A stretch of DNA of 34,650 bases from Magnetococcales bacterium HA3dbin3. GTDB lineage: Bacteria; Pseudomonadota; Magnetococcia; Magnetococcales; DC0425bin3. Where the stretch lies: NCBI GenBank assembly GCA_002753495.1, contig PEAJ01000009.1:1-34650 (forward strand), written 5' to 3'. The notes under the pieces were generated by a model. That model saw nothing but the letters and a program-made list of their open reading frames with translations, had not been told where the DNA came from and did no database searches. The stretch's first letter is position 1, and each line of letters opens with the position of its first letter. A program made the translations under genes and the position numbers. This document shows, in pieces, positions 50 to 34,650 of the stretch.

Positions 50-1891
50 TCATTTTTGCCCCCCAACCCCCTTGTTGCGATACAGGCTCCACAGGTCGGA
101 TTCGTCGATTTTGACAAACCGGGCGGCGATCTCGCCCTCGTAAATGGAACGCATGCGCTCTGCCTCGGGGTAGGCAGCAAGGACCTTGGGTTCGAGAAGC
201 AGATCGACATCAACTAACCCCGCGCCCAGCGTTTGGTACGCACCCCGACCGGCGAGCGGTCCCAAACCGCTGGCGGCTCCGGTGTTGAACGGAACCCAAA
301 ACCCCACCTGTTTCGACGGTGGCAGACCCAGGGCAAACGGGAAGGGATTGTCGAGCGTCAACGACCAAACACGCCGTGCGGAGGCGTCAACGTGCTTGCG
401 CAGGAGCTGCAAGGCATCGTTGACAAATACTGCGTTCTTGTAAGGAGTCAAATAAACCGAGTGCCCTTTGGCTTTCTCGGTTCCTTTATTGGAGACGTTG
501 AAGAAGATCTCCTTTTTGACCTCTTCGGGAGTATCCGGTTCATCCTCCCCCCGCGGCAAAGGCAGGGCACGGAAGGCAGGAGAGTCGATGAACTCGTTGT
601 TCTGGGCATGGGCATTGAAATTCTTGACATGCCAGTAGGATGCATAGGTGATACCGAGTATCTCCGGAATGATAAAAATGCGCACGATAAAATAAACGCC
701 CAGGGCGACGGCCAACAGTTGGTGCCAGGCCTGAGATCTCATTTCAGCCGCGGGGAGGGCGAAAAACGCGCGGCGGTGGTGTTCATCGATCAGCAGCACG
801 CCGATGGCGAAGGAGGGAACGTAGCGACCATACATGTCCAGGGTGCCGAGTTTGGCGCTCATCCCCTGGTAGTTGAAGGCCTCGACGAAACAGCCTGTTC
901 CCGCCAGCAACAGGGCAATCCAGAGCAGTTTCAGACGCTGGCCGGACCTGAACCCGACCCCGCCGGCGGCGACAAGAAGCAGGATCACCAGCCAATCCAA
1001 GTTGATCGTCAGCAGTTTCGCAAGATCGGCCAGGGTATTGCCGAGGGTACCAGCGGCATCGACAAACCCTGCCCGCGACATCGCGCGCACATCGAGGAGA
1101 AAATGGTCAAGCCGGATGCCGGTGAGCAGCCAGGCCCCCCCCCAGGCAAGGACAAAACCGAGGATGACCAGGCGCGGATCCGGCTTCGGGGCATCGCGAA
1201 ACGTCAGCCGCGCCACGAGCAGAAATCCGAAACCGGCCAGAAAGTAGCTCACCTTGTTCAACATCAACAAGGCAAGCAAAAACCCGAGCGGGAAGGAAGC
1301 AACAAACCGCCCGGCCGGGGCAACACCCGAACGCGGCGTCAGGGTCACCTGCACCATGAGCAGCCCAAGGAGAACCCAGCCAAATTTGTTGTACTGCGTG
1401 CTGTAGGAGACCATCTTGAAATAGGAGGCCCCCTGGTGCGTCACCCCGAGAGCGGCAAGAATCAGCACCAGGACGAACAGAAACGTCCCTGGTGCCGACA
1501 AGCGTCGGCTGCCGATGATCCAACCCCAAACACCCCCCGTCGCGGCCACGAACAGCGCCACCAGAGGCAGGGCACGCACATCATCGTGTACAAGACGCAT
1601 CGCCAGGGCGGTCAGCACGGCGTGCAGGTTGTGGACCTGGAGAAAATCGGTATGCGGAACCAGGCCGTTACGCAGCTGCCAACCGGCTGAGAGCAGGTAG
1701 AAAGTGTCCCTGGTGCTGTGTGCCTGATGAATCGGACCGGTGATCCACGTCATCACACCCAGGAGCAAACCAGCAACCAGGGCGAGCGCCAGGGCCAACC
1801 GACAGGCTCCCGGGGAGTCGCCGTACCAGGCGGCGAGCAGACGCAACACCCGATCAGGCCGCGCAACCGGTTGGTTGGTCGTGGGCGTCAC
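50..1891 (-). CDS. Polytopic membrane protein, GT-C glycosyltransferase-like
   Basis: This 613-residue protein has a short cytoplasmic N-terminus, about ten hydrophobic helices spread over residues 30-410, and a soluble C-terminal domain of roughly 200 residues. After the first helix comes a loop with Asp62 and an HTDF motif (residues 80-83). This resembles the first extracytoplasmic loop of GT-C enzymes of the PMT/ArnT type, which take sugars from polyprenyl-phosphate carriers. The start is a GTG preceded by GGAGGCGAG, a strong ribosome binding site. It is the last gene of a five-gene minus-strand operon whose first gene is a GT2 enzyme that could load a polyprenyl carrier. Fold and transferase role are inferred from topology and the acidic loop. 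A flippase or polymerase of similar topology is possible, and no substrate can be named. Confidence 0.6.
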   Translation of the reverse strand: MTPTTNQPVARPDRVLRLLAAWYGDSPGACRLALALALVAGLLLGVMTWITGPIHQAHSTRDTFYLLSAGWQLRNGLVPHTDFLQVHNLHAVLTALAMRLVHDDVRALPLVALFVAATGGVWGWIIGSRRLSAPGTFLFVLVLILAALGVTHQGASYFKMVSYSTQYNKFGWVLLGLLMVQVTLTPRSGVAPAGRFVASFPLGFLLALLMLNKVSYFLAGFGFLLVARLTFRDAPKPDPRLVILGFVLAWGGAWLLTGIRLDHFLLDVRAMSRAGFVDAAGTLGNTLADLAKLLTINLDWLVILLLVAAGGVGFRSGQRLKLLWIALLLAGTGCFVEAFNYQGMSAKLGTLDMYGRYVPSFAIGVLLIDEHHRRAFFALPAAEMRSQAWHQLLAVALGVYFIVRIFIIPEILGITYASYWHVKNFNAHAQNNEFIDSPAFRALPLPRGEDEPDTPEEVKKEIFFNVSNKGTEKAKGHSVYLTPYKNAVFVNDALQLLRKHVDASARRVWSLTLDNPFPFALGLPPSKQVGFWVPFNTGAASGLGPLAGRGAYQTLGAGLVDVDLLLEPKVLAAYPEAERMRSIYEGEIAARFVKIDESDLWSLYRNKGVGGQK

Positions 1892-1956
1892 CTCGCCTCC
1901 AAGATGAAGAAAACCGTTATCGCTAACAGGTCAGACACCCCCTCGAGCAGGACCAT
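1888..1956 (-). CDS. Possible 22-codon hydrophobic ORF coupled to the membrane protein
   Basis: Between the cobalamin radical SAM gene and the membrane protein gene lies an ATG-started ORF of 22 codons. Its translation begins MVLLEGVSDLLAITVFF and ends LEAR. Its TGA stop overlaps the GTG start of the membrane protein (GTGA). The peptide is mostly hydrophobic and could form one membrane helix. The ribosome binding site is weak (GGCAAG). It may be a translational coupler or leader, a small membrane protein, or chance. No family is recognised. Confidence 0.3.
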   Translation of the reverse strand: MVLLEGVSDLLAITVFFILEAR

Positions 1957-1967
1957 CTTGCCGATTC

Positions 1968-3581
1968 TCACCCAATCTCCCGTGCCGGTGATGCTCCCTG
2001 GTGCGGCATCTCACCAGTCGCCTGCCGCAAAAGGGCATCGGCTTGGCTGCTGCCGACTTTAAACCGCTTGCGCCAATAATTCGGGCTGACCGGATCAAAA
2101 CGTTTGCGGAACCACCAGCCGTAATTGAGGGCATAAGCGCGGGCATCACGATCGCGAAATACCATGGAGAGATCAAACAGCCGCAGGATGAAATCGAACG
2201 GGATGACGTAAAAGATGACATAGGCCCGGGAGTGATAAAACGCCCGGCGCAGCCACACCGGCATGAAGCTCATGGAGCGAAAAAGCAGTTTGTAGGCCTG
2301 GAACATGCGGCGACGCCTGCGTTCCATCGGCGAGCCCTCATCCATGTAGTTGCCATGCAACCCTTCATCGATGTCACGATTTTCTTCCTCCTTGAGGATC
2401 CCCGCCGCCACCGCCTGATCGATGATCCGCGTGCGCGGCAGGTAGGAGAGCATGAACGGCGAGATGCGATAAAGATAGCGCAGATTGGCAAACATCGCCG
2501 CCGCGCGTTGCAACTCCGCCTCGGTCTGTCCGGGCAGGCCGAGAATGTAATCCAGGGAGTAGTGAATGCCGACCCTCTCCATGATCTGGATGGCGCGATC
2601 GATCTGGGCGTTGGTTTCGTGCCGGTTGAGGACTTCGTTGCGTACGGTCGGGTCGTAGGATTCAAGCCCCATTTGCACCCCGAAGCAACCGGCGTCGCGC
2701 AGGGCGATGCAGAGATCTTCGCGAATGAGCAGGGGGTGACTGAAAATACGAAACGGCAGGCCGATCTCTCGCGGGTAGCGGGAGCAAAATTCCAGCACCC
2801 ACGACGGCGTGTAGGAGAAAACGGCGTTGCGAAAATCCACCCACTTGAAATTGTACCGATCCTTGTTGAGGCGCAGCTCCTGCAGGACGGAGTCGACGCT
2901 GCGCTCGCGAACCTTTTTGAAACCGGGCACATCCCGTTCCAGGTCGGAGACCGTAGAAACCGAACAGTAGGTGCAGTTGTAGGGGCAGCCGCGATTGGTC
3001 ACCGCCAGATAGTAGTTGCGGATCGGGATCACTGGGGCGTAAAGCTCCTTGTCCGGCAAGGGCATGGCGTCGAGGTCGGCGATCACCGGTCGGCGCGGAT
3101 TTTTGATGATGGTACCTGCCTTGTCCTTGAACCAAAGGCCGGGGATGGTCGTATCCCACACTCCCTCGTCCAGGCGGCGCAGAAGGTCAGCCATCGCCAG
3201 TTCGCCCTCGTTGAGGCAGACCGCATCCACCGGCGGCTTGGCGATGATGACATCCGGACAGGTGATGGCATGATAACCACCAAAAATGATCGGGACATCG
3301 AGCAACGCCTTGACCTCCGCTGCCCGGCGGATGCCCCAACGATAGTTGATGGCCATCACCGAAAAGGCCACCACCTCCGGGCGCGAGGCGACTATCTGGT
3401 GCAACAGGTTGGAACCTTGATCGAAGAGTCGGGCGAGCCAGGGAATGCACAGGTAGTTCTTGTCGTCGAACAGGGATTGCTCATAGGCGAGCGCAACCTC
3501 GTGCCCCTCGGCCTTGAGGTAGGCGGAGATGTATTCGACCGACGGATTTTCCCACCCCATGGTGACGAAGGTGATACGCAT
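1968..3581 (-). CDS. Cobalamin-binding radical SAM enzyme (B12-rSAM)
   Basis: This 537-residue protein has an N-terminal Rossmann-like cobalamin-binding domain (residues about 1-140, including IIFGGYHA near 98-105). It is followed by a radical SAM barrel with the cluster motif CPYNCTYC (Cys199, Cys203, Cys206) and a C-terminal basic, aromatic-rich tail. The order matches class B radical SAM methylases and the BchE/HpnP group, which use methylcobalamin or SAM chemistry on unactivated carbons. The ATG at 3581 is chosen because the domain begins there (MRITFVTMGW). The frame stays open upstream to a TTG at 3662, so 27 more residues are possible. Genes for a methyltransferase and a second radical SAM enzyme lie just upstream in the same operon, suggesting successive modification of one lipid or glycan. 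The substrate is unknown; HpnP-like hopanoid methylation is possible but not supported by the neighbours. Confidence 0.85.
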   Translation of the reverse strand: MRITFVTMGWENPSVEYISAYLKAEGHEVALAYEQSLFDDKNYLCIPWLARLFDQGSNLLHQIVASRPEVVAFSVMAINYRWGIRRAAEVKALLDVPIIFGGYHAITCPDVIIAKPPVDAVCLNEGELAMADLLRRLDEGVWDTTIPGLWFKDKAGTIIKNPRRPVIADLDAMPLPDKELYAPVIPIRNYYLAVTNRGCPYNCTYCSVSTVSDLERDVPGFKKVRERSVDSVLQELRLNKDRYNFKWVDFRNAVFSYTPSWVLEFCSRYPREIGLPFRIFSHPLLIREDLCIALRDAGCFGVQMGLESYDPTVRNEVLNRHETNAQIDRAIQIMERVGIHYSLDYILGLPGQTEAELQRAAAMFANLRYLYRISPFMLSYLPRTRIIDQAVAAGILKEEENRDIDEGLHGNYMDEGSPMERRRRRMFQAYKLLFRSMSFMPVWLRRAFYHSRAYVIFYVIPFDFILRLFDLSMVFRDRDARAYALNYGWWFRKRFDPVSPNYWRKRFKVGSSQADALLRQATGEMPHQGASPAREIG

Positions 3582-3665
3582 GGTCCCGACCCCGATATCA
3601 AAGTTCCTGGAAGACCAGGCGATTGTTCCGTTTTTCCAATCCGTTGCCCATGCATCCGGCAAGGG

Positions 3666-4433
3666 TCACGATGCCGGCGGGCGCCGGGCAAGGCCGTAGA
3701 GCGACACCCCCCAGGGCCAACTACCACCGCGGCGAATCCACTTAAGCTCCAGGGCGGCGAACCCGGCGAGGATGCGCTCGACCCAAGCCGGCGGCGGCTT
3801 CTGGAAATCGCTTTCGGCATCGTTCCGGCTGACTGTGGGTGATCCGAGCACTTTGCGCAGGAAAAACACCGCCGGAAAAATGAAAAACGACCAATACGAG
3901 GCCCTCTCGATCGAAAAACCGGCCGCCTCCAGCATGCGCACAAATGCACGTTGACGGTAGCGGCGCAGGTGATCGAAGGCGAGATCGTGTTCGGAAAAGA
4001 GCGACTGGAAGCAGGGAACGTTGAACAACAGGTGTCCCCCCGGGCGCAAGATCCGCCGCGCCTCGCGCATGGCGCCGGCATCATCGGGCAGATGCTCGAA
4101 AATGTCGAAGGCAACCACCAGATCGAAACTCGCATCGGCAAAGGGGAGGCGTTGGGCATCGCCGGCGACCATCAGTCGGACACCGCGCCGGCGGCAGTGG
4201 GCAGTGGCAATCGGGGAAAGATCGAGACCGACGTAGGTACCGTAAGGGGCACAAGTCGGGTGGTTGCCGCCCAGGGCACTGCCGAGGTCGAGGATCCGCG
4301 GCACGTCCAACGCCGCTTTGTGCGCAGTCGGGTAGAGGTCGGCAAGCGTTGTCACCAGAAAGCGGCGTCGCGCCTCGTACCACCAAAAGTCGGCTTCCTG
4401 GTGCACCATGCAGTCAAATTCGCTCGCTTTCAA
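3666..4433 (-). CDS. Class I SAM-dependent methyltransferase
   Basis: This protein has about 255 residues with a class I methyltransferase fold. Motif I is ILDLGSALGGN (residues 47-57), followed by the acidic strand end GLDLSP and the motif FDLVVAFDIFEHL typical of the UbiE/type 11 group. A hydrophobic stretch near residues 180-195 (FFIFPAVFF) may touch the membrane. The chosen start is a TTG overlapping the upstream stop as TTGA, with GGAGGG six bases ahead; an ATG at 4409 is the alternative. The tight overlap with the radical SAM/SPASM gene implies translational coupling. It probably methylates an intermediate of the same envelope glycan or lipid pathway. The substrate cannot be read from the sequence. 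Confidence 0.8.
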   Translation of the reverse strand: MKASEFDCMVHQEADFWWYEARRRFLVTTLADLYPTAHKAALDVPRILDLGSALGGNHPTCAPYGTYVGLDLSPIATAHCRRRGVRLMVAGDAQRLPFADASFDLVVAFDIFEHLPDDAGAMREARRILRPGGHLLFNVPCFQSLFSEHDLAFDHLRRYRQRAFVRMLEAAGFSIERASYWSFFIFPAVFFLRKVLGSPTVSRNDAESDFQKPPPAWVERILAGFAALELKWIRRGGSWPWGVSLYGLARRPPAS

Positions 4434-5449
4434 GCCGGGCCCTCCGACAACGGGGGGGATTGCAACGGCTCTCGGCTGGAAAACTCTTCCTTGTAGCGCG
4501 GACAATCCACCATCTTCTGGCGATAAAGGGGATGCAGGCGCATGCGGTCCCAAATCGCCTTGAGGGGCTCCTGTTTGAGGTTGCCGGCGATATCATGCAC
4601 CAGATCGCAGGGGGTCACCTCGCCGTAGGCGGTGATGTAAATCTTCTCCACCCCGGCCGGGCAGCCCGATCGCCCACGAAAATTGTACATGTTGTGGTGG
4701 CGCGCGCGCGGATGGCGCAAAAGCTCGGCCAGGGCATCGTTGCGTTCCTGGCAGGTCATCATTTTTTCCGCCTGCCCCGACCATCCCCCCACGGCCGCGG
4801 AGTCGCAGATAAGCAAAAAGGCATCCTCGCGTTCACACAATGCCAGCAAATCGTACATCTTCCGCTTGTTGCTGGAGGTTTCGGTGGAGAGCACGGTCGA
4901 AAAGCAGAGGTTGAGACCGACCTCATGCGCCCAGCGGCCGGCCCGAATGACCTTGTCGTAGCATCCGGGGACACCGCGCAACCGGTCGTGTTCGGCGGCG
5001 TCAGCGGCGTCAAGGCTGATTTGGATGGTATTGAGACCAGCCGCCTTCATGTCGGCCATTTTTTGGCGCGTCAAAAGCAGGGCGTTGGTCACCAGGGAAA
5101 CGACGACCCGCCGCGGCTGACAGGCGCGAATGACATCAAGCAGATCCTTGCGCAGGGTGGGTTCGCCGCCGGTCAGGTTGACATGAATGATGCCCAGTTC
5201 AATCGCCTGGGCGATGAGGTCGCCAATCTCGGTGACGGTCAAGTACGCATGGTCGTCATTTTCCATGTTGGCGGAGTAGCACTTGTGGCACTTGGCCTGG
5301 CAACGATAGGTAAGGGCCAGCTCCAGGGAGCGCAGGGTGTCCTGACGCAGGATCAGGGAACGAAAGTAGCCGCTGGCCACCCGTTCGAGAACCGCCGGCT
5401 TGCTGATGAAAGGCAGGTGGCGGGCGGCCTTGACGACGCGATCAATCAT
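4430..5449 (-). CDS. Radical SAM enzyme with SPASM-like C-terminal cysteines
   Basis: This is a 339-residue radical SAM enzyme. The cluster motif is CQAKCHKC (Cys50, Cys54, Cys57), and the SAM-binding GGEP motif is NLTGGEPTL (residues 91-99). C-terminal cysteines at 233, 263 (SGCPAG), 281 (TPCDL) and 316 (DCPRY) suggest an auxiliary iron-sulfur cluster of the SPASM/twitch type. The ATG at 5449 begins MIDRVVKAAR and overlaps the end of the glycosyltransferase gene by 8 bases. SPASM enzymes modify peptides, sugars or anaerobic maturases. In this operon a sugar or lipid substrate is more likely than a peptide, because no precursor peptide is evident apart from the tiny ORF at 1888. The family is certain; the function is unknown. 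Confidence 0.85.
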   Translation of the reverse strand: MIDRVVKAARHLPFISKPAVLERVASGYFRSLILRQDTLRSLELALTYRCQAKCHKCYSANMENDDHAYLTVTEIGDLIAQAIELGIIHVNLTGGEPTLRKDLLDVIRACQPRRVVVSLVTNALLLTRQKMADMKAAGLNTIQISLDAADAAEHDRLRGVPGCYDKVIRAGRWAHEVGLNLCFSTVLSTETSSNKRKMYDLLALCEREDAFLLICDSAAVGGWSGQAEKMMTCQERNDALAELLRHPRARHHNMYNFRGRSGCPAGVEKIYITAYGEVTPCDLVHDIAGNLKQEPLKAIWDRMRLHPLYRQKMVDCPRYKEEFSSREPLQSPPLSEGPA

Positions 5450-6524
5450 GAGGCAAATCCTGGGGGGACGACGGCCGATGGTGGATGGAAGGCTCCGTGG
5501 CAACGGGGTCTGAACCGGCAACGGCAGGAGGGGATCGCCCCCCGGCAGCGGGGCGGCGGTGAATGGCCGCCACCAGGTAGTAGGGACGACCACGCACCTC
5601 GTCGTAGATCCGGCCAATGTACTCCCCGAGAATGCCGGTGAAGGTAATTTGGAACGAGGCGATGGTCAACATCAGGATGACGGCCATGGCGCTGCCGGGA
5701 ACGTTGTAGAAAATCCAAAAACCGGTGCCGGTGATTCTGACAAAAAGGATAATCACGCTGAGCAGGGCAAAGATCAGCGTCAAACCAAAGCCAATTACGG
5801 TAAAAAGCCGGATCGGCACCAGCGAGAAGGAAAACAGGGCATTCAAGCCGTCGCTGAGCAGTTTCTTCAGGGTCTGGCGCGGACGGCCGTGGGCGCGCTG
5901 CGGGCGATGGTACTTGATGCTGGCCTGGCGGTAACCAAGAAAAGAGCGCAGCATCGGGTAGCTTTTGTTGCGTTCCCGCAAGGCACGCAGGTGTTGGGCG
6001 GCATTGTGGTCGAGAAGGGAGAACATCCCCGCCTGTTCGACCAGCTCAACGCTGGAGGTGGCGCGAACGAGGCGGTAGTAGACCAGGGTCAAAAAATGGC
6101 GCAGCCGCCCCTGCACCCGGCTCTCCTTGACCGTGAACACCACCGGGTACCCCTCGCGCCATTTGGCCAGCAGTTCCGGGATGAGTTCCGGGGGATCTTC
6201 CAGATCGCCGTCCATGAGGATGAGCAGGTCGCCGTGCGCATGATCAAGACCGGCGTTGAAGGCGTTCTGATGGCCCCAGTTGCGCGTCAGTTCCAAAACG
6301 ACGATGCGCGAATCCTCCGCCTGCCGGGCAAGAAGCCGCGCCAGGGTGGCATCGCTGCTGCCGTCATCGACGAAGAGAAACTCGAAACCATACGCCAAGC
6401 TGTCCGCCACCGCCTGCAAGCGGTTGACCAGGAGGTCAACGCTCTCCTCCTCGTTCAGCAGGGGGATGATGACGCTGACACTCTCAACTTTGTTTTCCGC
6501 ACGGGGCGGCAAGGCTGCGGACAT
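5442..6524 (-). CDS. GT2 glycosyltransferase, polyprenyl-phosphate sugar transferase type
   Basis: This 360-residue protein has a GT-A/GT2 catalytic domain at residues 14-230: VSVIIPLLNEEES, the nucleotide-binding DDGSSD (53-58) and the metal-binding DGD (105-107). It is followed by two membrane helices (about 238-263 and 277-300) and the usual EYIGRIYDEVRGRP motif. This is the architecture of ArnC/GtrB/DPM1-like enzymes, which transfer a sugar from a nucleotide donor to polyprenyl phosphate on the cytoplasmic face. The last 40 residues are Pro/Ser/Arg-rich and less conserved-looking. It is the first gene of the minus-strand operon and would supply the activated sugar for the GT-C-like protein at the operon end. 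The ATG at 6524 has only a weak ribosome binding site. Confidence 0.88.
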   Translation of the reverse strand: MSAALPPRAENKVESVSVIIPLLNEEESVDLLVNRLQAVADSLAYGFEFLFVDDGSSDATLARLLARQAEDSRIVVLELTRNWGHQNAFNAGLDHAHGDLLILMDGDLEDPPELIPELLAKWREGYPVVFTVKESRVQGRLRHFLTLVYYRLVRATSSVELVEQAGMFSLLDHNAAQHLRALRERNKSYPMLRSFLGYRQASIKYHRPQRAHGRPRQTLKKLLSDGLNALFSFSLVPIRLFTVIGFGLTLIFALLSVIILFVRITGTGFWIFYNVPGSAMAVILMLTIASFQITFTGILGEYIGRIYDEVRGRPYYLVAAIHRRPAAGGRSPPAVAGSDPVATEPSIHHRPSSPQDLPHD

Positions 6525-9851: not shown

Positions 9852-10125
9852 CGCCATGTTCCTGTTCAGACGCTTTGTCACCCGGCCGAGGCACAACACC
9901 AGGCTCCCCTTCGTCACCGGCAAAGATATCCGCCAGGGCCATGAGCGCCAGGCGCAGGTCCGGGTCCGGGTCCGCGGGCGCGGCAAGCGGTATCGCCGCC
10001 GTCATCGGCACGGCCGTGGGGGGGGAGCGACGTGGTGAATCGGGAATGCTGTCGGACGCGACCGAACCAGCAGGTTCGGAAAGAGACGACTCAGCCGCGA
10101 TTACTTCCTGGAGCCGGGTTGCGGA
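9844..10125 (-). other. Open frame continuing the CheW-like gene past an A10 run (frameshift extension)
   Basis: In the -1 frame relative to the CheW-like gene, a 93-codon open frame runs from just after the A10 run (T10 on the plus strand, 10126-10135) to a TGA at 9844-9846. That TGA overlaps the start codon of the histidine kinase (ATGTCTGA). The frame has no stop and ends with sensible codons and an acidic, Ala/Asp/Pro-rich composition (for example LRLALMALADIFAGDEGEPG). This matches the preceding tail in style. Reading it requires one extra A or a -1 shift on A AAA AAA. The ordinary-frame stop at 10101-10103 leaves about 250 bases with no gene otherwise. Confidence 0.6.
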
Positions 10126-12245
10126 TTTTTTTTTTCCGGAAGGGTCGCCGCGGTACTCTCCAGCGTGTCGGATTCGTCAGCCAACGGCACCGATTCTTTC
10201 GCGCGCGCATCCGAGGCAACGGCTTCGGAAACTTCCGCCACGTTGGCGTCATCGGCCGGTACCGTCAACTCTGCCGCCGCATCCGGGTCTGGGGTGGTGA
10301 TTTCGGGGTCATTGTCGAAACCAAAGTCCAACGGCACGTCTTCTTGAGGGCTCATCAGACTGACGCCGTCGGAAAAGAGCAGGTTGCCAGCAAGTGCAGA
10401 GAGCCCGAGATCCCTGGGGACCACCACCAGCTCTTCCGGCTCTGTTCCAACCCCGGCGCTGCTGGCCTCTTCCCTCGGCTCCTGGGGGATGACCTCTTCG
10501 CTTACTGCACTCTCACCCCCTTGTTCCCCAACGTTCTCCCAACCACCCTCAAGAGGAGGGTCAAGTGGAGGGGACGCCTCTTCCGACTCCACGTTCTCTT
10601 CCCGGCTCGACCACGCCGCCCCGGGGTGATGTCTGGCAGGCAGGGCGTATGCCTTGCTTCCCGCGGCAAAGAGGGTCTCGCCCAGGTTCAGGGCGACCCC
10701 AGAAGCCAACCCACCGGTCAGGTCGCCCAACGTGGCCCCAAAATCAACCTCTTCGTCATTCCAAGACCCAGAGTTCCCGACCAATTCACGGGCCAATGGG
10801 TCTGGCGTCATCGACGGGGAGAGACAGGCAGCGACCTGATTTCGGGAGTTGCCGTCCAGATCCGTGTGTCTCACGATGGCCGGCTCGGCCGGGGTGTCCC
10901 AGGCAGCATCAAGCCGGGTCTCAGAGCCGGTCGTCGTCGTTGACTCCGCCGGAGTGTCCCAGGCAGCATCAAGCCGGGTCTCGGCGCCGGTCGTCGTCGT
11001 TGACTCCGCCGGAGTGTCCCAGGCAGCATCAAGCCGGGTCTCGGAGCTGGTCGTCGTCGTTGACTCCGCCGGAGTGTCCCAGGCAGCATCAAGCCGGGTC
11101 TCGGAGCTGGTCGTCGTCGTTGACTCCGCCGGAGCATCCCAGGCAGCATCAAGCCGGGTCTCAGAGCCGGTCGTCGTCGTTGACTCCGCCGGAGCATCCC
11201 AGGCAGCATCAAGTTGGGTCTCAGAGCCGGTCGCCGTCATTGACTCCGCCGGAACATCCCAGGCAGCATCAAGTTGGGTCTCAGAGCCGGTCGCCGTCAA
11301 CTCCGCCGGAGCATCCCAGGCAGCACCATCGGGCTGGGGCTCGGCGCCAGTCGCCGTCGACTCCGCCGGAGCATCCCAGGCAGCACCATCGGGCTGGGGC
11401 TCGGCGCCAGTCGCCATCAACTCCGCCGAGGTGTCCGCGACCTCCTGCCCGGCGGCGCGCGGCTGATCGATGCCATCGCCTGCCTCAGACTCGGACAGGT
11501 CGAGCGACTCCTCAACCAGAACCGCTTCGGGCGGTGGCACGGGCTCCGCCGCCAACCGGAGCGCGGCCGCTGGCGACGCACAATCGTCCGCCACTTCCCC
11601 CGCGGCCGATTTGCTGGCCACACCCCTTGCACCCCCCCTCCCCCGACCAGACACCGACGCAGTCGATGCCCTGGCCACGGCCGGGCGGGCGGAGGGAGAA
11701 AAAGGCAACGCCCCTGCCCCCTCTTCCGGCAACAGCAGATCGTGCTCCTCCAGCCGGGAGGAATTGGCCTGCTCCACGACCGGAGGCGCATTCTCTTCCG
11801 GGGTCGTCTCCTCCGGGGCAAAGGTAAACAGGGCACGGGTATCCAGGATCATGATGAACTTGTCACCCTGACGCCCCATGGAACGAATGAAGCCAGAACC
11901 GGGACTTTGATTGGCACGCGGTGGCGGCAAAAGCGCCTGCGGGGGCATGTCCATCACCTCATCCACCCCGTCCACCACCGCGCCGAAAAAGCGCCCCCCC
12001 CTGCGCCAGGGCAGGTCGAGGATGATGATTGCGCTGTCGCGGCTTGGTTCGATGGGGGAGCGATCCAGGCGCTGGCGCAAATCGACGACCGGCACCACCA
12101 CCCCACGCAACCGGATAACCCCCTTGACGAAGGCATCAACCCGAGGAATCGCCGTAAGGGGCATGTACTCAAGCACCTCCTGCACCTCATCGATATCGAC
12201 GCCGAAGGTCTCCCCGTCCAGTTTGAAAGTCAGCAGTTTCATCAT
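10101..12245 (-). CDS. CheW-like protein with long repeat-containing acidic tail
   Basis: The protein has 714 residues as read, or about 800 if the A10 frameshift is used. Residues 1-145 form a CheW domain: KLLTFKLDGETFGVDIDEV, then GVIRLRGVVVPVVDL, and a FIRSMGRQGDKFIMILD segment near the end. The rest is a low-complexity acidic, Ala/Pro/Glu-rich tail. Residues 277-456 are nine tandem 20-residue units of the type SETRLDAAWDTPAESTTTTG. Canonical CheW is about 150-170 residues and bridges receptors to CheA; here no CheA or receptor gene is adjacent. The start ATG overlaps the stop of the coiled-coil gene (ATGA). Downstream, the alternative frame overlaps the hybrid kinase gene. The tail may be a scaffold or an interaction platform; this is inference. 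Confidence 0.85.
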   Translation of the reverse strand: MMKLLTFKLDGETFGVDIDEVQEVLEYMPLTAIPRVDAFVKGVIRLRGVVVPVVDLRQRLDRSPIEPSRDSAIIILDLPWRRGGRFFGAVVDGVDEVMDMPPQALLPPPRANQSPGSGFIRSMGRQGDKFIMILDTRALFTFAPEETTPEENAPPVVEQANSSRLEEHDLLLPEEGAGALPFSPSARPAVARASTASVSGRGRGGARGVASKSAAGEVADDCASPAAALRLAAEPVPPPEAVLVEESLDLSESEAGDGIDQPRAAGQEVADTSAELMATGAEPQPDGAAWDAPAESTATGAEPQPDGAAWDAPAELTATGSETQLDAAWDVPAESMTATGSETQLDAAWDAPAESTTTTGSETRLDAAWDAPAESTTTTSSETRLDAAWDTPAESTTTTSSETRLDAAWDTPAESTTTTGAETRLDAAWDTPAESTTTTGSETRLDAAWDTPAEPAIVRHTDLDGNSRNQVAACLSPSMTPDPLARELVGNSGSWNDEEVDFGATLGDLTGGLASGVALNLGETLFAAGSKAYALPARHHPGAAWSSREENVESEEASPPLDPPLEGGWENVGEQGGESAVSEEVIPQEPREEASSAGVGTEPEELVVVPRDLGLSALAGNLLFSDGVSLMSPQEDVPLDFGFDNDPEITTPDPDAAAELTVPADDANVAEVSEAVASDARAKESVPLADESDTLESTAATLPEKKNPQPGSRK
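10878..11417 (-). repeat. Nine tandem 60-bp repeats inside the CheW-like gene
   Basis: Nine in-frame 20-codon units lie here. The six from 10921 to 11280 fall in almost perfect 60-base register (each contains tgactccgccgg on the plus strand). The units nearest the 5' end of the gene (11300-11417) are more divergent and carry PQPDGAAWD in place of RLDAAWD. Nucleotide identity is highest in the middle units, which suggests recent expansion by slippage or unequal exchange and predicts variation in copy number between strains. Confidence 0.95.
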
Positions 12246-31681: not shown

Positions 31682-34650
31682 TCAGTGATCACCCGCCGTT
31701 GCTGGCGTCGCCGTACCCTTTTCTTTGTCGGATGACCCCGCCGCCGCTTTGAGCCATTCGCGCGCCAACTCGCTGCCCTTGAGACGCTGTTCCTGGTTCA
31801 GGGTTTTGCCGATCAATTCCAGGTTACGCAGGGCATCCTTGTCATTCTTGAGGGAGGCCAGGCTGTACCAGGCGAAGGCCCTGACCGGATCCCTGGGTAC
31901 GCCCCGACCCTCTTCATACATCCAACCCAGGCTGTTCTGCGCGCGCACTTCCCCCTGCATGGCCGCCTTCAGGTACCACTGCGCTGCCTGGGCAAGGTTT
32001 TTCTCGACACCACGCCCCTCTTCGTACATCCAGCCCATGCTGTTTTGGGCCGGGGCCAAGCCGTGGTCGGCAGCCTTTTGGTACCAGTAGATGGCCTTGG
32101 CCAAGTTGACGGCCGTCCCCTCACCCTTCTCGTACATGCCACCGAGCTGGTTCTGGGCCTGCGGGTCATCCTTTTCAGCGGCCTTGGTGAACCAGGAGAT
32201 GGCCTCGGGCAAATCCCGGGCAACCCCCATGCCCAACTTCTTCTGGATGGCAAAGCGCGTCTGTGCCTGCACATGCCCTTTTTGCGCGGCAAGATAGTAC
32301 CATTTGGCCGCCGTTTCCGGATCCGGCGACACCCCTTCACCCTTCATGAACTTCTCGCCAAGCAGGTACTGCGCCCGAGCCGACCCTCCCTCCGCGGCCT
32401 TGGTGAACCAGTTCATCGCCTGTACATGGTTAACCGCCACCCCTTCTCCCTTGGCGTAGGCCTCGGCGACTCGAACCTTGGATTCGACATCACCCCTGTT
32501 GGCGGCCTCCTGGAACCAGTGAAAGGCCTCGCCGATGTTGCGCTCCCCGCCCGTGCCACTCCAGAGGCGGTTGGCCAGACGAACCTGGGCATCGGCGATA
32601 CCCGCGGTGGCGGCCTTGCGGTAATAGTGGTTCGCCTTCCCCTGGTCGGCCTGGGTTCCACGGCCATTTTCGAACATGATCCCGGTCTGCAACTGCGCCT
32701 CGGCCAGGTCCTGATCCGCCGCCTTCAGGAAGAGCACAAAGGCATCGCGATCATTTTCGGCGGACCCCTTGTGGCTGACCCCATCCATCGCCACGCGATA
32801 CTGGGCGGCCGGGTGCCCACCCTCCGCTGCCTTCCGAAACCAAACCATGGCCTCGCGCGGATCACCCGCCACGCCGGTACCTTCAAGCAGGGAGAGGGCA
32901 TACTGGTACTGTCCGGCGACAAAACCACCCTCCGCCGATCGTTGAAACCATCGTACCGCCTCCTTGTCGTCTTTCGGGGCACCCACGCCCGAGAGGTAGG
33001 CATTGCCCATGGCGAACTGGGCCTCGGGCCAATTTTTCTCCGCGGCCTTGCGCGTCCATTCCATGCTCGTTGCGGCATTCCTCTCGATGCCGGAGCCGGT
33101 TGCATACATTTTCGCCAGTTGGAACATCGCCTCGGCATCACCGGCGGCGGCGGCAGTCCTGGTTTTCCCCGCCTTGGTGGCGAGCGCCTCCTGTTCGGAG
33201 ACGATGCGCGGTCCATCCCCCTCCCGCGTCATCCCCCAAAACACGGCACCAACACCCAACAGGGAGATGACGGCCAGGGTTCCCAGGACCACGCGCGTGC
33301 GCGCCGGCATTTTGTTCAGGCCAAGCCCCAAAAGGTCGGCCGCCACCTGTTCCCCACCATCCGGCTGGCTAACCCGCACCGTCGTCAGCCAGGTTTGAAT
33401 ATCCTTGGGCCGATCCGTTTCAACCACCTTGAGGGCGAGATCGACCGCCAACAGGAGTGACTCCGAGTAGCGTCCCTTGCCGATTTCCACCGCCGGCACC
33501 ATGGGATCGGGCTGGTTGCGCATGATGGCGCTGCTGCGTTGCGGGGCGCCCACCGGCTTGCGCCCACCGATACAGCGATACATCACGGCACCCATGGCGT
33601 AAATATCCGTCCAGGGTCCCTGGCGGGTGGCATCCTCGAAATACTGCTCCATGGGGGCATAGTTCGGCGTCAACATGGCGGTCATGTGCCCATCCCCGCC
33701 CCCTTCCTCGGTCTTGCGCGCCGACCCGAAATCCAAAAGCACCGGCGTGCCATCCTTGTGACGGATAAAGACATTATCCGGCTTGATGTCCCGGTGGATA
33801 ATCTTTGCCTCATGCAAAACGGTCAAACCCTTCAGGAGGGGAATGACGACGGCAAGAAGTTCCTTCTCATCCAGAATCTTCTTTTTCTTCAGCACCGCGG
33901 ACAAGGACTCGCCGTCCTCGTACTCCATGGCCATGTAGGCGGTGTTGTTCTCCTCGAAGAAGGTTGCCACACGCACAAGGCTCGGATGCTTGAACTTGGC
34001 CAGGGTACGCGCCTCATCCAGGAAGCGGTTGCGCCCCTTGATGAACATCTCCTCATACTGGGCCGACTTTGGCTGAATGGAGTTGTCCGATCGGCGCACG
34101 GCCAATTGCGACGGCAGGAACTCCTTGACCGCGACGTAATTGTCGAGACGGGTATCATGGGCCTTGTAGGTCAGTCCAAAACCACCCTGGCCGAGGACCC
34201 GCTCAATCTTGTACCACATGAGCATGTGGCCGATCGGCAGGGCATCGCCACGATCATGATTGGCCTCTTGGGGTTTCGATTCGCCTTCGGAGCTTTCGCC
34301 GGTGGAGGGAACCGCCACGTCGACGGTGCTCCGACCGCCCCCCTCGGTGACACCAGGCGCGGCCGCCGATCCAACGCCGCCGTTTGGCAAAACCTGCACC
34401 GTCGCGCCATCGTCGGCCGCGCTGGAGGCCTGGACTGTCGTGCCGGTACGGGCGCCTGGCGCAACCCGAACCGTTGCACCGTCAGCATCGCCAGGCAAAA
34501 CACGCACCGTCGCGTCATCGTCGGCCGCGCCGGAGGCCCGAACTGTCGTGCCGGTACGGGCACCTGGCGCAACCCGAACCGTTGCACCGTCAGCATCGCC
34601 AGACAAAACACGCACCGTCGCGTCGTCGTCGGCCGTGCCGGCCCCCCGGA
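31682..34650 (-). CDS. Membrane Ser/Thr protein kinase with Sel1 repeats (5' end beyond window)
   Basis: The frame is open to the right edge, so the N-terminus is missing. In order it has a repeated Thr-rich N-terminal region (34404-34650), a protein kinase domain (about 33400-34215), a membrane helix (33240-33310, VVLGTLAVISLLGVGAVFWG), and about a dozen Sel1-like repeats (31800-33150) of the form A-x-W-Y-x-K-A-A-x-x-G and MYEEGRGV. The kinase has the glycine loop GQGGFGLTY, VAVKEF, HRDIKPDN and LLDFGSAR, so it should be active. The Sel1 array is probably extracytoplasmic and binds a protein or cell-wall ligand. Such kinases often act with FHA proteins or PP2C phosphatases; none is in the window. 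Confidence 0.93.
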   Translation of the reverse strand, partial: RGAGTADDDATVRVLSGDADGATVRVAPGARTGTTVRASGAADDDATVRVLPGDADGATVRVAPGARTGTTVQASSAADDGATVQVLPNGGVGSAAAPGVTEGGGRSTVDVAVPSTGESSEGESKPQEANHDRGDALPIGHMLMWYKIERVLGQGGFGLTYKAHDTRLDNYVAVKEFLPSQLAVRRSDNSIQPKSAQYEEMFIKGRNRFLDEARTLAKFKHPSLVRVATFFEENNTAYMAMEYEDGESLSAVLKKKKILDEKELLAVVIPLLKGLTVLHEAKIIHRDIKPDNVFIRHKDGTPVLLDFGSARKTEEGGGDGHMTAMLTPNYAPMEQYFEDATRQGPWTDIYAMGAVMYRCIGGRKPVGAPQRSSAIMRNQPDPMVPAVEIGKGRYSESLLLAVDLALKVVETDRPKDIQTWLTTVRVSQPDGGEQVAADLLGLGLNKMPARTRVVLGTLAVISLLGVGAVFWGMTREGDGPRIVSEQEALATKAGKTRTAAAAGDAEAMFQLAKMYATGSGIERNAATSMEWTRKAAEKNWPEAQFAMGNAYLSGVGAPKDDKEAVRWFQRSAEGGFVAGQYQYALSLLEGTGVAGDPREAMVWFRKAAEGGHPAAQYRVAMDGVSHKGSAENDRDAFVLFLKAADQDLAEAQLQTGIMFENGRGTQADQGKANHYYRKAATAGIADAQVRLANRLWSGTGGERNIGEAFHWFQEAANRGDVESKVRVAEAYAKGEGVAVNHVQAMNWFTKAAEGGSARAQYLLGEKFMKGEGVSPDPETAAKWYYLAAQKGHVQAQTRFAIQKKLGMGVARDLPEAISWFTKAAEKDDPQAQNQLGGMYEKGEGTAVNLAKAIYWYQKAADHGLAPAQNSMGWMYEEGRGVEKNLAQAAQWYLKAAMQGEVRAQNSLGWMYEEGRGVPRDPVRAFAWYSLASLKNDKDALRNLELIGKTLNQEQRLKGSELAREWLKAAAGSSDKEKGTATPATAGDH
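34404..34650 (-). repeat. 108-bp tandem repeats encoding Thr-Val motifs
   Basis: Two full 108-bp (36-codon) units, 34404-34511 and 34512-34619, and the beginning of a third run to the window edge. Each unit contains three T-V-(R/Q) motifs (ATVRV, ATVRV, GTTVR or GTTVQ) separated by Asp/Gly/Ala-rich spacers. Near-identity of the units at the DNA level indicates recent duplication. Confidence 0.9.

Follow-up and report, generated by a model that had tools for sequence, protein, structure and literature searches.

A putative surface-sugar operon pairing two radical SAM enzymes with a polyprenyl-phosphate glycosyltransferase in a Magnetococcales bacterium

Genes and predicted proteins of the operon

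The DNA under study (the window, i.e. the whole stretch of 34,650 nucleotides, which starts at contig base 1) belongs to a metagenome-assembled genome of a Magnetococcales bacterium (2.9 Mb, 77% complete). ORF calls and Pfam matches outline a run of five genes on the minus strand at positions 50-6524 (table 1), with an endonuclease IV gene 178 nt ahead of the first gene. All five genes proposed in a preliminary description of this DNA are present on that strand, as judged from ORF calls and, for four of them, from Pfam; the overlaps also claimed there are found between the glycosyltransferase (GT2) and SPASM genes (8 nt) and between the SPASM and methyltransferase (MT) genes (4 nt), but not further on, where spacers of 84 nt (MT/B12-type radical SAM, rSAM) and 76 nt (B12-type rSAM/membrane protein) are found. 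The last gene stops 49 nt short of the contig end and, therefore, the operon may run on past it. Elsewhere in the window, a minus-strand gene at 10101-12245 encodes a CheW domain with a long tandem-repeat tail of SETRLDAAWDAPAESTTTT-like units, and another, at 31682-34648 on the same strand and running off the window, encodes a protein kinase domain, ten Sel1 repeats and an N-terminal DATVRV repeat region.

Table 1. Predicted genes of the operon and their positions in the window.
Feature	Position	Strand	Basis
Multi-TM protein, 613 aa, GTG start, putative GT-C	50..1891	-	Hydropathy
B12-binding-type radical SAM enzyme, 537 aa	1968..3581	-	Pfam, AlphaFold, Foldseek
Class I SAM methyltransferase (MT), 255 aa, TTG start	3666..4433	-	Pfam
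SPASM/twitch radical SAM enzyme, 339 aa	4430..5449	-	Pfam, Cys positions
Polyprenyl-phosphate glycosyltransferase GT2 (GtrB/ArnC/PgfS-like), 360 aa	5442..6524	-	Pfam, PDB profile

The GT2 has a strong family-level assignment, made from its sequence, as a polyprenyl-phosphate glycosyltransferase of the GtrB kind: it matches Pfam Glycos_transf_2 (1.6e-26), its closest solved relatives in a profile search of the PDB are GtrB sll0501 (1.3e-98) and ArnC (4.9e-74), and inspection of the C-terminus reveals TM helices and a GEYIGRIYDEVRGRPYYLV tail. It stays under the NCBIfam cut-offs for ArnC (180.9 versus 529 bits) and for PgfS. The MT matches Methyltransf_11 (2.5e-21) and carries an N-terminal FWWYEARR motif; its start codon overlaps the stop of the SPASM gene, and the start position fits the alignment with the Latescibacterota locus described below (L162). 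Profiles run over the fetched loci indicate that GT2 and MT genes of these types often lie side by side, both in other Magnetococcales and outside the order.

The SPASM enzyme (Pfam Radical_SAM 1e-21; SPASM 4.1e-7, above the Pfam cut-off) contains the rSAM motif C50-x3-C54-x2-C57 and, as candidate ligands of an auxiliary cluster, C263-x12-G-x4-C281 plus C316. The full seven-Cys SPASM set is absent, C263, C281 and C316 alone matching the usual one, and this reduced set appears twitch-like. The closest solved relatives in a profile search of the PDB are BlsE (cytosylglucuronate decarboxylase; 3e-17), SkfB, MoaA and PqqE, with which the window's enzyme shares the rSAM motif and part of the SPASM Cys set; it differs from them in falling below every curated NCBIfam SPASM subfamily cut-off among the matches listed, several of which are RiPP maturase families.

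The B12-type enzyme combines a B12-binding domain (2.7e-11) with a Radical_SAM domain (1.2e-18), and contains C199-x3-C203-x2-C206 and a hydrophobic C-terminal segment (455-473); it thus has the domain set and the CxxxCxxC motif expected of a cobalamin-dependent radical SAM methylase, a prediction at the domain level. An alignment-based AlphaFold model (pLDDT 87.9) was matched by Foldseek to TsrM, MgmA, AprD4, CysS, OxsB and TokK in the PDB with E-values of 1e-14 or better. The two domains and the fold are common to all of them, but the window's enzyme is only 12-18% identical to these proteins, and its use of cobalamin is putative; AprD4 itself has the B12-type radical SAM fold without cobalamin. 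The top fold match, TsrM, is a tryptophan methylase, which counts against a sugar substrate, whereas by sequence the closest solved proteins are AprD4 (1.2e-16), TokK and OxsB.

For the membrane protein, hydropathy predicts about eight or more TM helices followed by a soluble C-terminal part; the first loop contains an acidic residue at position 62, and N75, G76, P79, H80 and D82 are invariant in four relatives. It matched no Pfam family and, in a profile search, no PDB relative, and a single-sequence AlphaFold model (pLDDT 39) was too low in confidence for use. The GT-C label, taken only from topology and the loop motif, is plausible. A further glycan cluster of the source genome (L037, C218:1-20000) encodes a 41% identical paralog, together with UDP-sulfoquinovose synthase-like, UDP-GlcNAc dehydratase-type, polyprenyl-P GT-like, deacetylase and flippase-like (LPG_synthase_TM) genes and two rSAM genes, and in another Magnetococcales genome (L128, G023:C163:848-6019) a relative lies between a B12-type rSAM gene and a GT2 gene.

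Recurrence of a four-gene core outside the order

In 60 relatives the best matches to the B12-type enzyme (42%), SPASM enzyme (37%), GT2 (55%) and MT (34%) each lie at a separate location; therefore, the orthologous set is not common within the order and, indeed, it was found in no other Magnetococcales genome searched. One of these bacteria carries a parallel set of distant paralogs in one stretch (L159, G039: MT, SPASM, GT2, B12-type rSAM, TM protein). A scan across phyla with a three-row alignment of the B12-type enzyme, covering one genome for each of 84,980 species, returned at least 23 loci, in which genes were called by a simple script and checked against profile matches, the profiles of all five proteins being run over all fetched loci; a contig scan that used only the SPASM protein yielded no match.

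The locus in Latescibacterota (L162, GC 34%) has GT2, SPASM, MT and B12-type genes in the same order as the window, with identities of 46, 61, 45 and 63%, respectively. Two Omnitrophota loci on contigs of 152 and 96 kb (L164 and L165) contain GT2, B12-type, SPASM, second rSAM, SDR and MT genes; GT2, SPASM, B12-type and MT genes follow one another in an unclassified bacterium (L166, bacterium R3-B46), and GT2, B12-type, MT and SPASM genes in an Oligoflexia locus (L167), the SPASM identity in the latter two being just 30-33%, no better than that of paralogs elsewhere. A 3.4 kb Phycisphaerales contig (L163) carries SPASM and B12-type genes, then a GT2 of another type, with no MT between. The phylum labels of L162, L163 and L167 depend on how short contigs (12, 3.4 and 11 kb, respectively) were binned. 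Because the four-gene core recurs in five loci outside the window's order (L162 and L164-L167), the gene set is beyond chance; every complete core includes the GT2, and GT2 and MT accompany the rSAM pair in six loci, the window counted.

As for the five-gene set that had been proposed, it is the four-gene core that recurs across phyla, whereas the membrane protein is not kept: no sequence similarity was found between the window's protein and those of the other loci (profile search), nor among the latter (BLAST). In L162 and L164 an unrelated multi-TM protein is encoded directly upstream of the GT2 and, thus, the fifth position, predicted to be that of the transferase, seems to vary.

In the tree of the B12-type enzymes the window groups with L162, L163, L164, L165 and L167 in one clade (97/92), and the module label requires 2 changes, as compared with 6.4 after shuffling, where none of 500 shuffles came as low. 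L166 falls outside the group made up of this clade and its sister clade, which implies either two gains of the core or its loss from the sister clade. The eight loci of the latter (L168-L174 and L177), where several contigs are short, have no SPASM or MT profile match nearby, and serve as an internal control. Their B12-type enzyme is in most cases preceded by a small GT2 and is accompanied by Gfo/Idh, acetyltransferase and DegT aminotransferase genes, in hosts that include Geobacter, Desulfarculus, Nitrosomonadaceae, Omnitrophota and others; this is another unnamed sugar-linked B12-type rSAM cluster.

Orthologs of the SPASM enzyme are rare: they occur in 4 of 384 Omnitrophota genomes at E<=1e-75, the two strong ones (about 1e-196) both with the full core, in 1 of 64 Latescibacterota genomes and, among 398 Pseudomonadota, solely in genomes of the window's order. 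Such a patchy distribution suggests that the core has spread by horizontal transfer; it was absent from the plasmids searched (the sole match being PqqE, 28%) and was not found in the viral contigs searched.

These data bear on whether the genes belong together at all. The Magnetococcales are rich in mosaic clusters of SPASM, B12-type rSAM, GT2 and MT paralogs, and the lack of the orthologous set in the other genomes of the order would also be expected if common surface-polysaccharide genes had been loosely packed into a combination without joint function. This explanation is already disfavoured by synteny, and is given very little credence, in the light of the identical order and up to 63% identity in L162, the presence of all four genes in L164-L167, and the rarity of SPASM orthologs, of which both strong Omnitrophota ones carry the full core. 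It is just as improbable that one or both rSAM enzymes modify a peptide or protein, as in RiPP maturation, with the glycosyltransferase genes as unrelated neighbours: ApyD, a RiPP enzyme, is the top NCBIfam match of the B12-type enzyme and several RiPP maturases are matched by the SPASM enzyme, but the ApyD score of 108 bits compares with a cut-off of 750, the inner gaps of the operon (<=84 nt) are too short for a usual precursor gene, and none was found there, and the rSAM pair is accompanied by GT2 and MT in all six loci mentioned above.

A lipid-linked sugar as candidate substrate

The surroundings of the relatives point to sugars. L164 comes straight after rfbF, CDP-glucose 4,6-dehydratase-like, acetolactate-synthase-like and RfbH genes, which resemble those for synthesis of a CDP-3,6-dideoxyhexose and, possibly, of a C-branched (yersiniose-type) sugar. 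In L166, UDP-sugar dehydrogenase and epimerase genes come after the core. The glycan context of the operon is well supported. The link that had been proposed between the rSAM enzymes, the MT and lipid-linked sugar chemistry draws support from the recurrence of the core across phyla, the close relationship between the GT2 and both GtrB and ArnC, and the sugar-nucleotide and glycan genes near relatives, with the restriction that the core comprises four genes rather than five. Within the Magnetococcales, a C-branched dideoxy sugar may be the product of three clusters (L152, L155 and L159) with NeuB-like, acetolactate-synthase-like, RfbG/RfbH-type, GT2, SPASM and B12-type rSAM genes.

Since the core recurs in distant phyla and fits no named pathway, the product of the operon is probably an unusual cell-surface sugar. 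As to how it would be made, we tentatively favour, with slightly less conviction than doubt, a surface-glycan tailoring operon on the three-component (GtrABC-type) plan, in which a sugar is remodelled on polyprenyl phosphate. The GT2, whose family assignment is strong and whose activity is predicted, would charge undecaprenyl phosphate with a sugar on the cytoplasmic side of the membrane; the SPASM enzyme, the MT and the B12-type enzyme would then remodel this sugar, most likely while on the carrier, by radical oxidation, dehydration or decarboxylation, by O- or N-methylation, and by C-methylation or carbon rearrangement, respectively; a flippase encoded elsewhere would turn the donor over, and the multi-TM protein, as a putative GT-C, would move the sugar to an extracytoplasmic acceptor. 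A donor-making core kept across phyla next to a variable transferase position is what would be expected if acceptors differ. In favour of this reading, the rSAM relatives closest by sequence among solved proteins, AprD4 and BlsE, act on sugars, and precedents are offered by the three-component systems and by HpnJ (see below); against it, the resemblance to solved sugar enzymes is both weak and partial, neither a nearby sugar-nucleotide gene nor a flippase gene is found in the window (none of the latter within 50-6524), and GtrA (PF04138) was not found in the 77% complete source genome.

Whether the radical chemistry takes place on the lipid carrier is the main point of dispute. In the principal alternative, the rSAM enzymes and the MT act on a cytosolic nucleotide sugar and the finished product is passed to the carrier by the GT2, so that the glycan outcome is unchanged and no lipid-linked radical chemistry occurs. 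That relatives adjoin CDP- and UDP-sugar genes fits this order of events, as does the fact that the substrates of the sugar-acting AprD4 and BlsE are soluble; it fits less well with the window and L162, where no nucleotide-sugar gene adjoins the operon, with the presence of the GT2 in every complete core and with the hydrophobic C-terminal segment of the B12-type enzyme, and is considered unlikely, albeit a serious competitor. Returning to remodelling on the carrier, its broader form, i.e. a horizontally spread module in which a polyprenyl-phosphate-linked sugar undergoes radical SAM chemistry, with cobalamin-dependent C-methylation or carbon rearrangement as part of it, is regarded as a possibility with marked reserve; if true, it would define a new class of surface sugar, attached by acceptor-specific membrane transferases.

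Few roles are known for radical SAM enzymes in the building of bacterial surface glycans, and in the core, which occurs in several, for the most part uncultured, phyla, two of them are coupled to a polyprenyl-phosphate glycosyltransferase. The core points to sugars that would escape present glycan prediction, and offers a defined set for testing.

Comparison with known systems

The preliminary description had recognized no named pathway with this gene set, and this is borne out by scores well short of the curated NCBIfam cut-offs and by the lack of a hopene cyclase match over the cut-off in the Magnetococcales genomes searched; no paper on the gene set was found in the open-access literature searched.

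In the HpnI-HpnK-HpnJ pathway to hopanoid cyclitol ethers, the B12-type rSAM enzyme HpnJ remodels a sugar borne on a lipid (PMC12583986). Such a pathway shares with the operon a B12-type rSAM enzyme and a glycosyltransferase for attaching a sugar to a lipid, and HpnJ and ladderane-type B12 rSAM enzymes are among the NCBIfam relatives of the window's enzyme; a modification of hopanoids or other membrane lipids, with the sugar on a lipid remaining in the membrane, would be the corresponding explanation. However, the window's enzyme misses both cut-offs (83.7 versus 577.6 bits for HpnJ, 61 versus 360 bits for the ladderane type), the glycosyltransferase is of the GtrB/ArnC type, a SPASM enzyme and an MT are present in addition, and no squalene-hopene cyclase was found in the source genome, nor one over the cut-off in any Magnetococcales genome searched. 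The hopanoid reading is, therefore, rejected on the missed cut-offs and the missing cyclase, and membrane-lipid modification is regarded as quite improbable.

With the Arn pathway of lipid A modification (ArnC/ArnD/ArnT) the operon shares an ArnC-like GT2, but the ArnC cut-off is missed and the other Arn genes are absent from it.

In three-component systems, a sugar is edited on its carrier and the lipid-linked donor is finished by a GT-C (PMC11127046). The operon has in common with them (GtrABC; the pentofuranose/GT136 systems of PMC11127046) a GtrB-kind polyprenyl-phosphate GT2 and a multi-TM protein that varies from locus to locus and, with the pentofuranose systems in particular, sugar-editing enzymes encoded inside the operon. 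It is, thus, built like a three-component system, yet is not classed as a member, because no flippase gene is found in it and the GT-C is putative. What sets it further apart is that it encodes two rSAM enzymes together with an MT; we know of no three-component system equipped with such a set.
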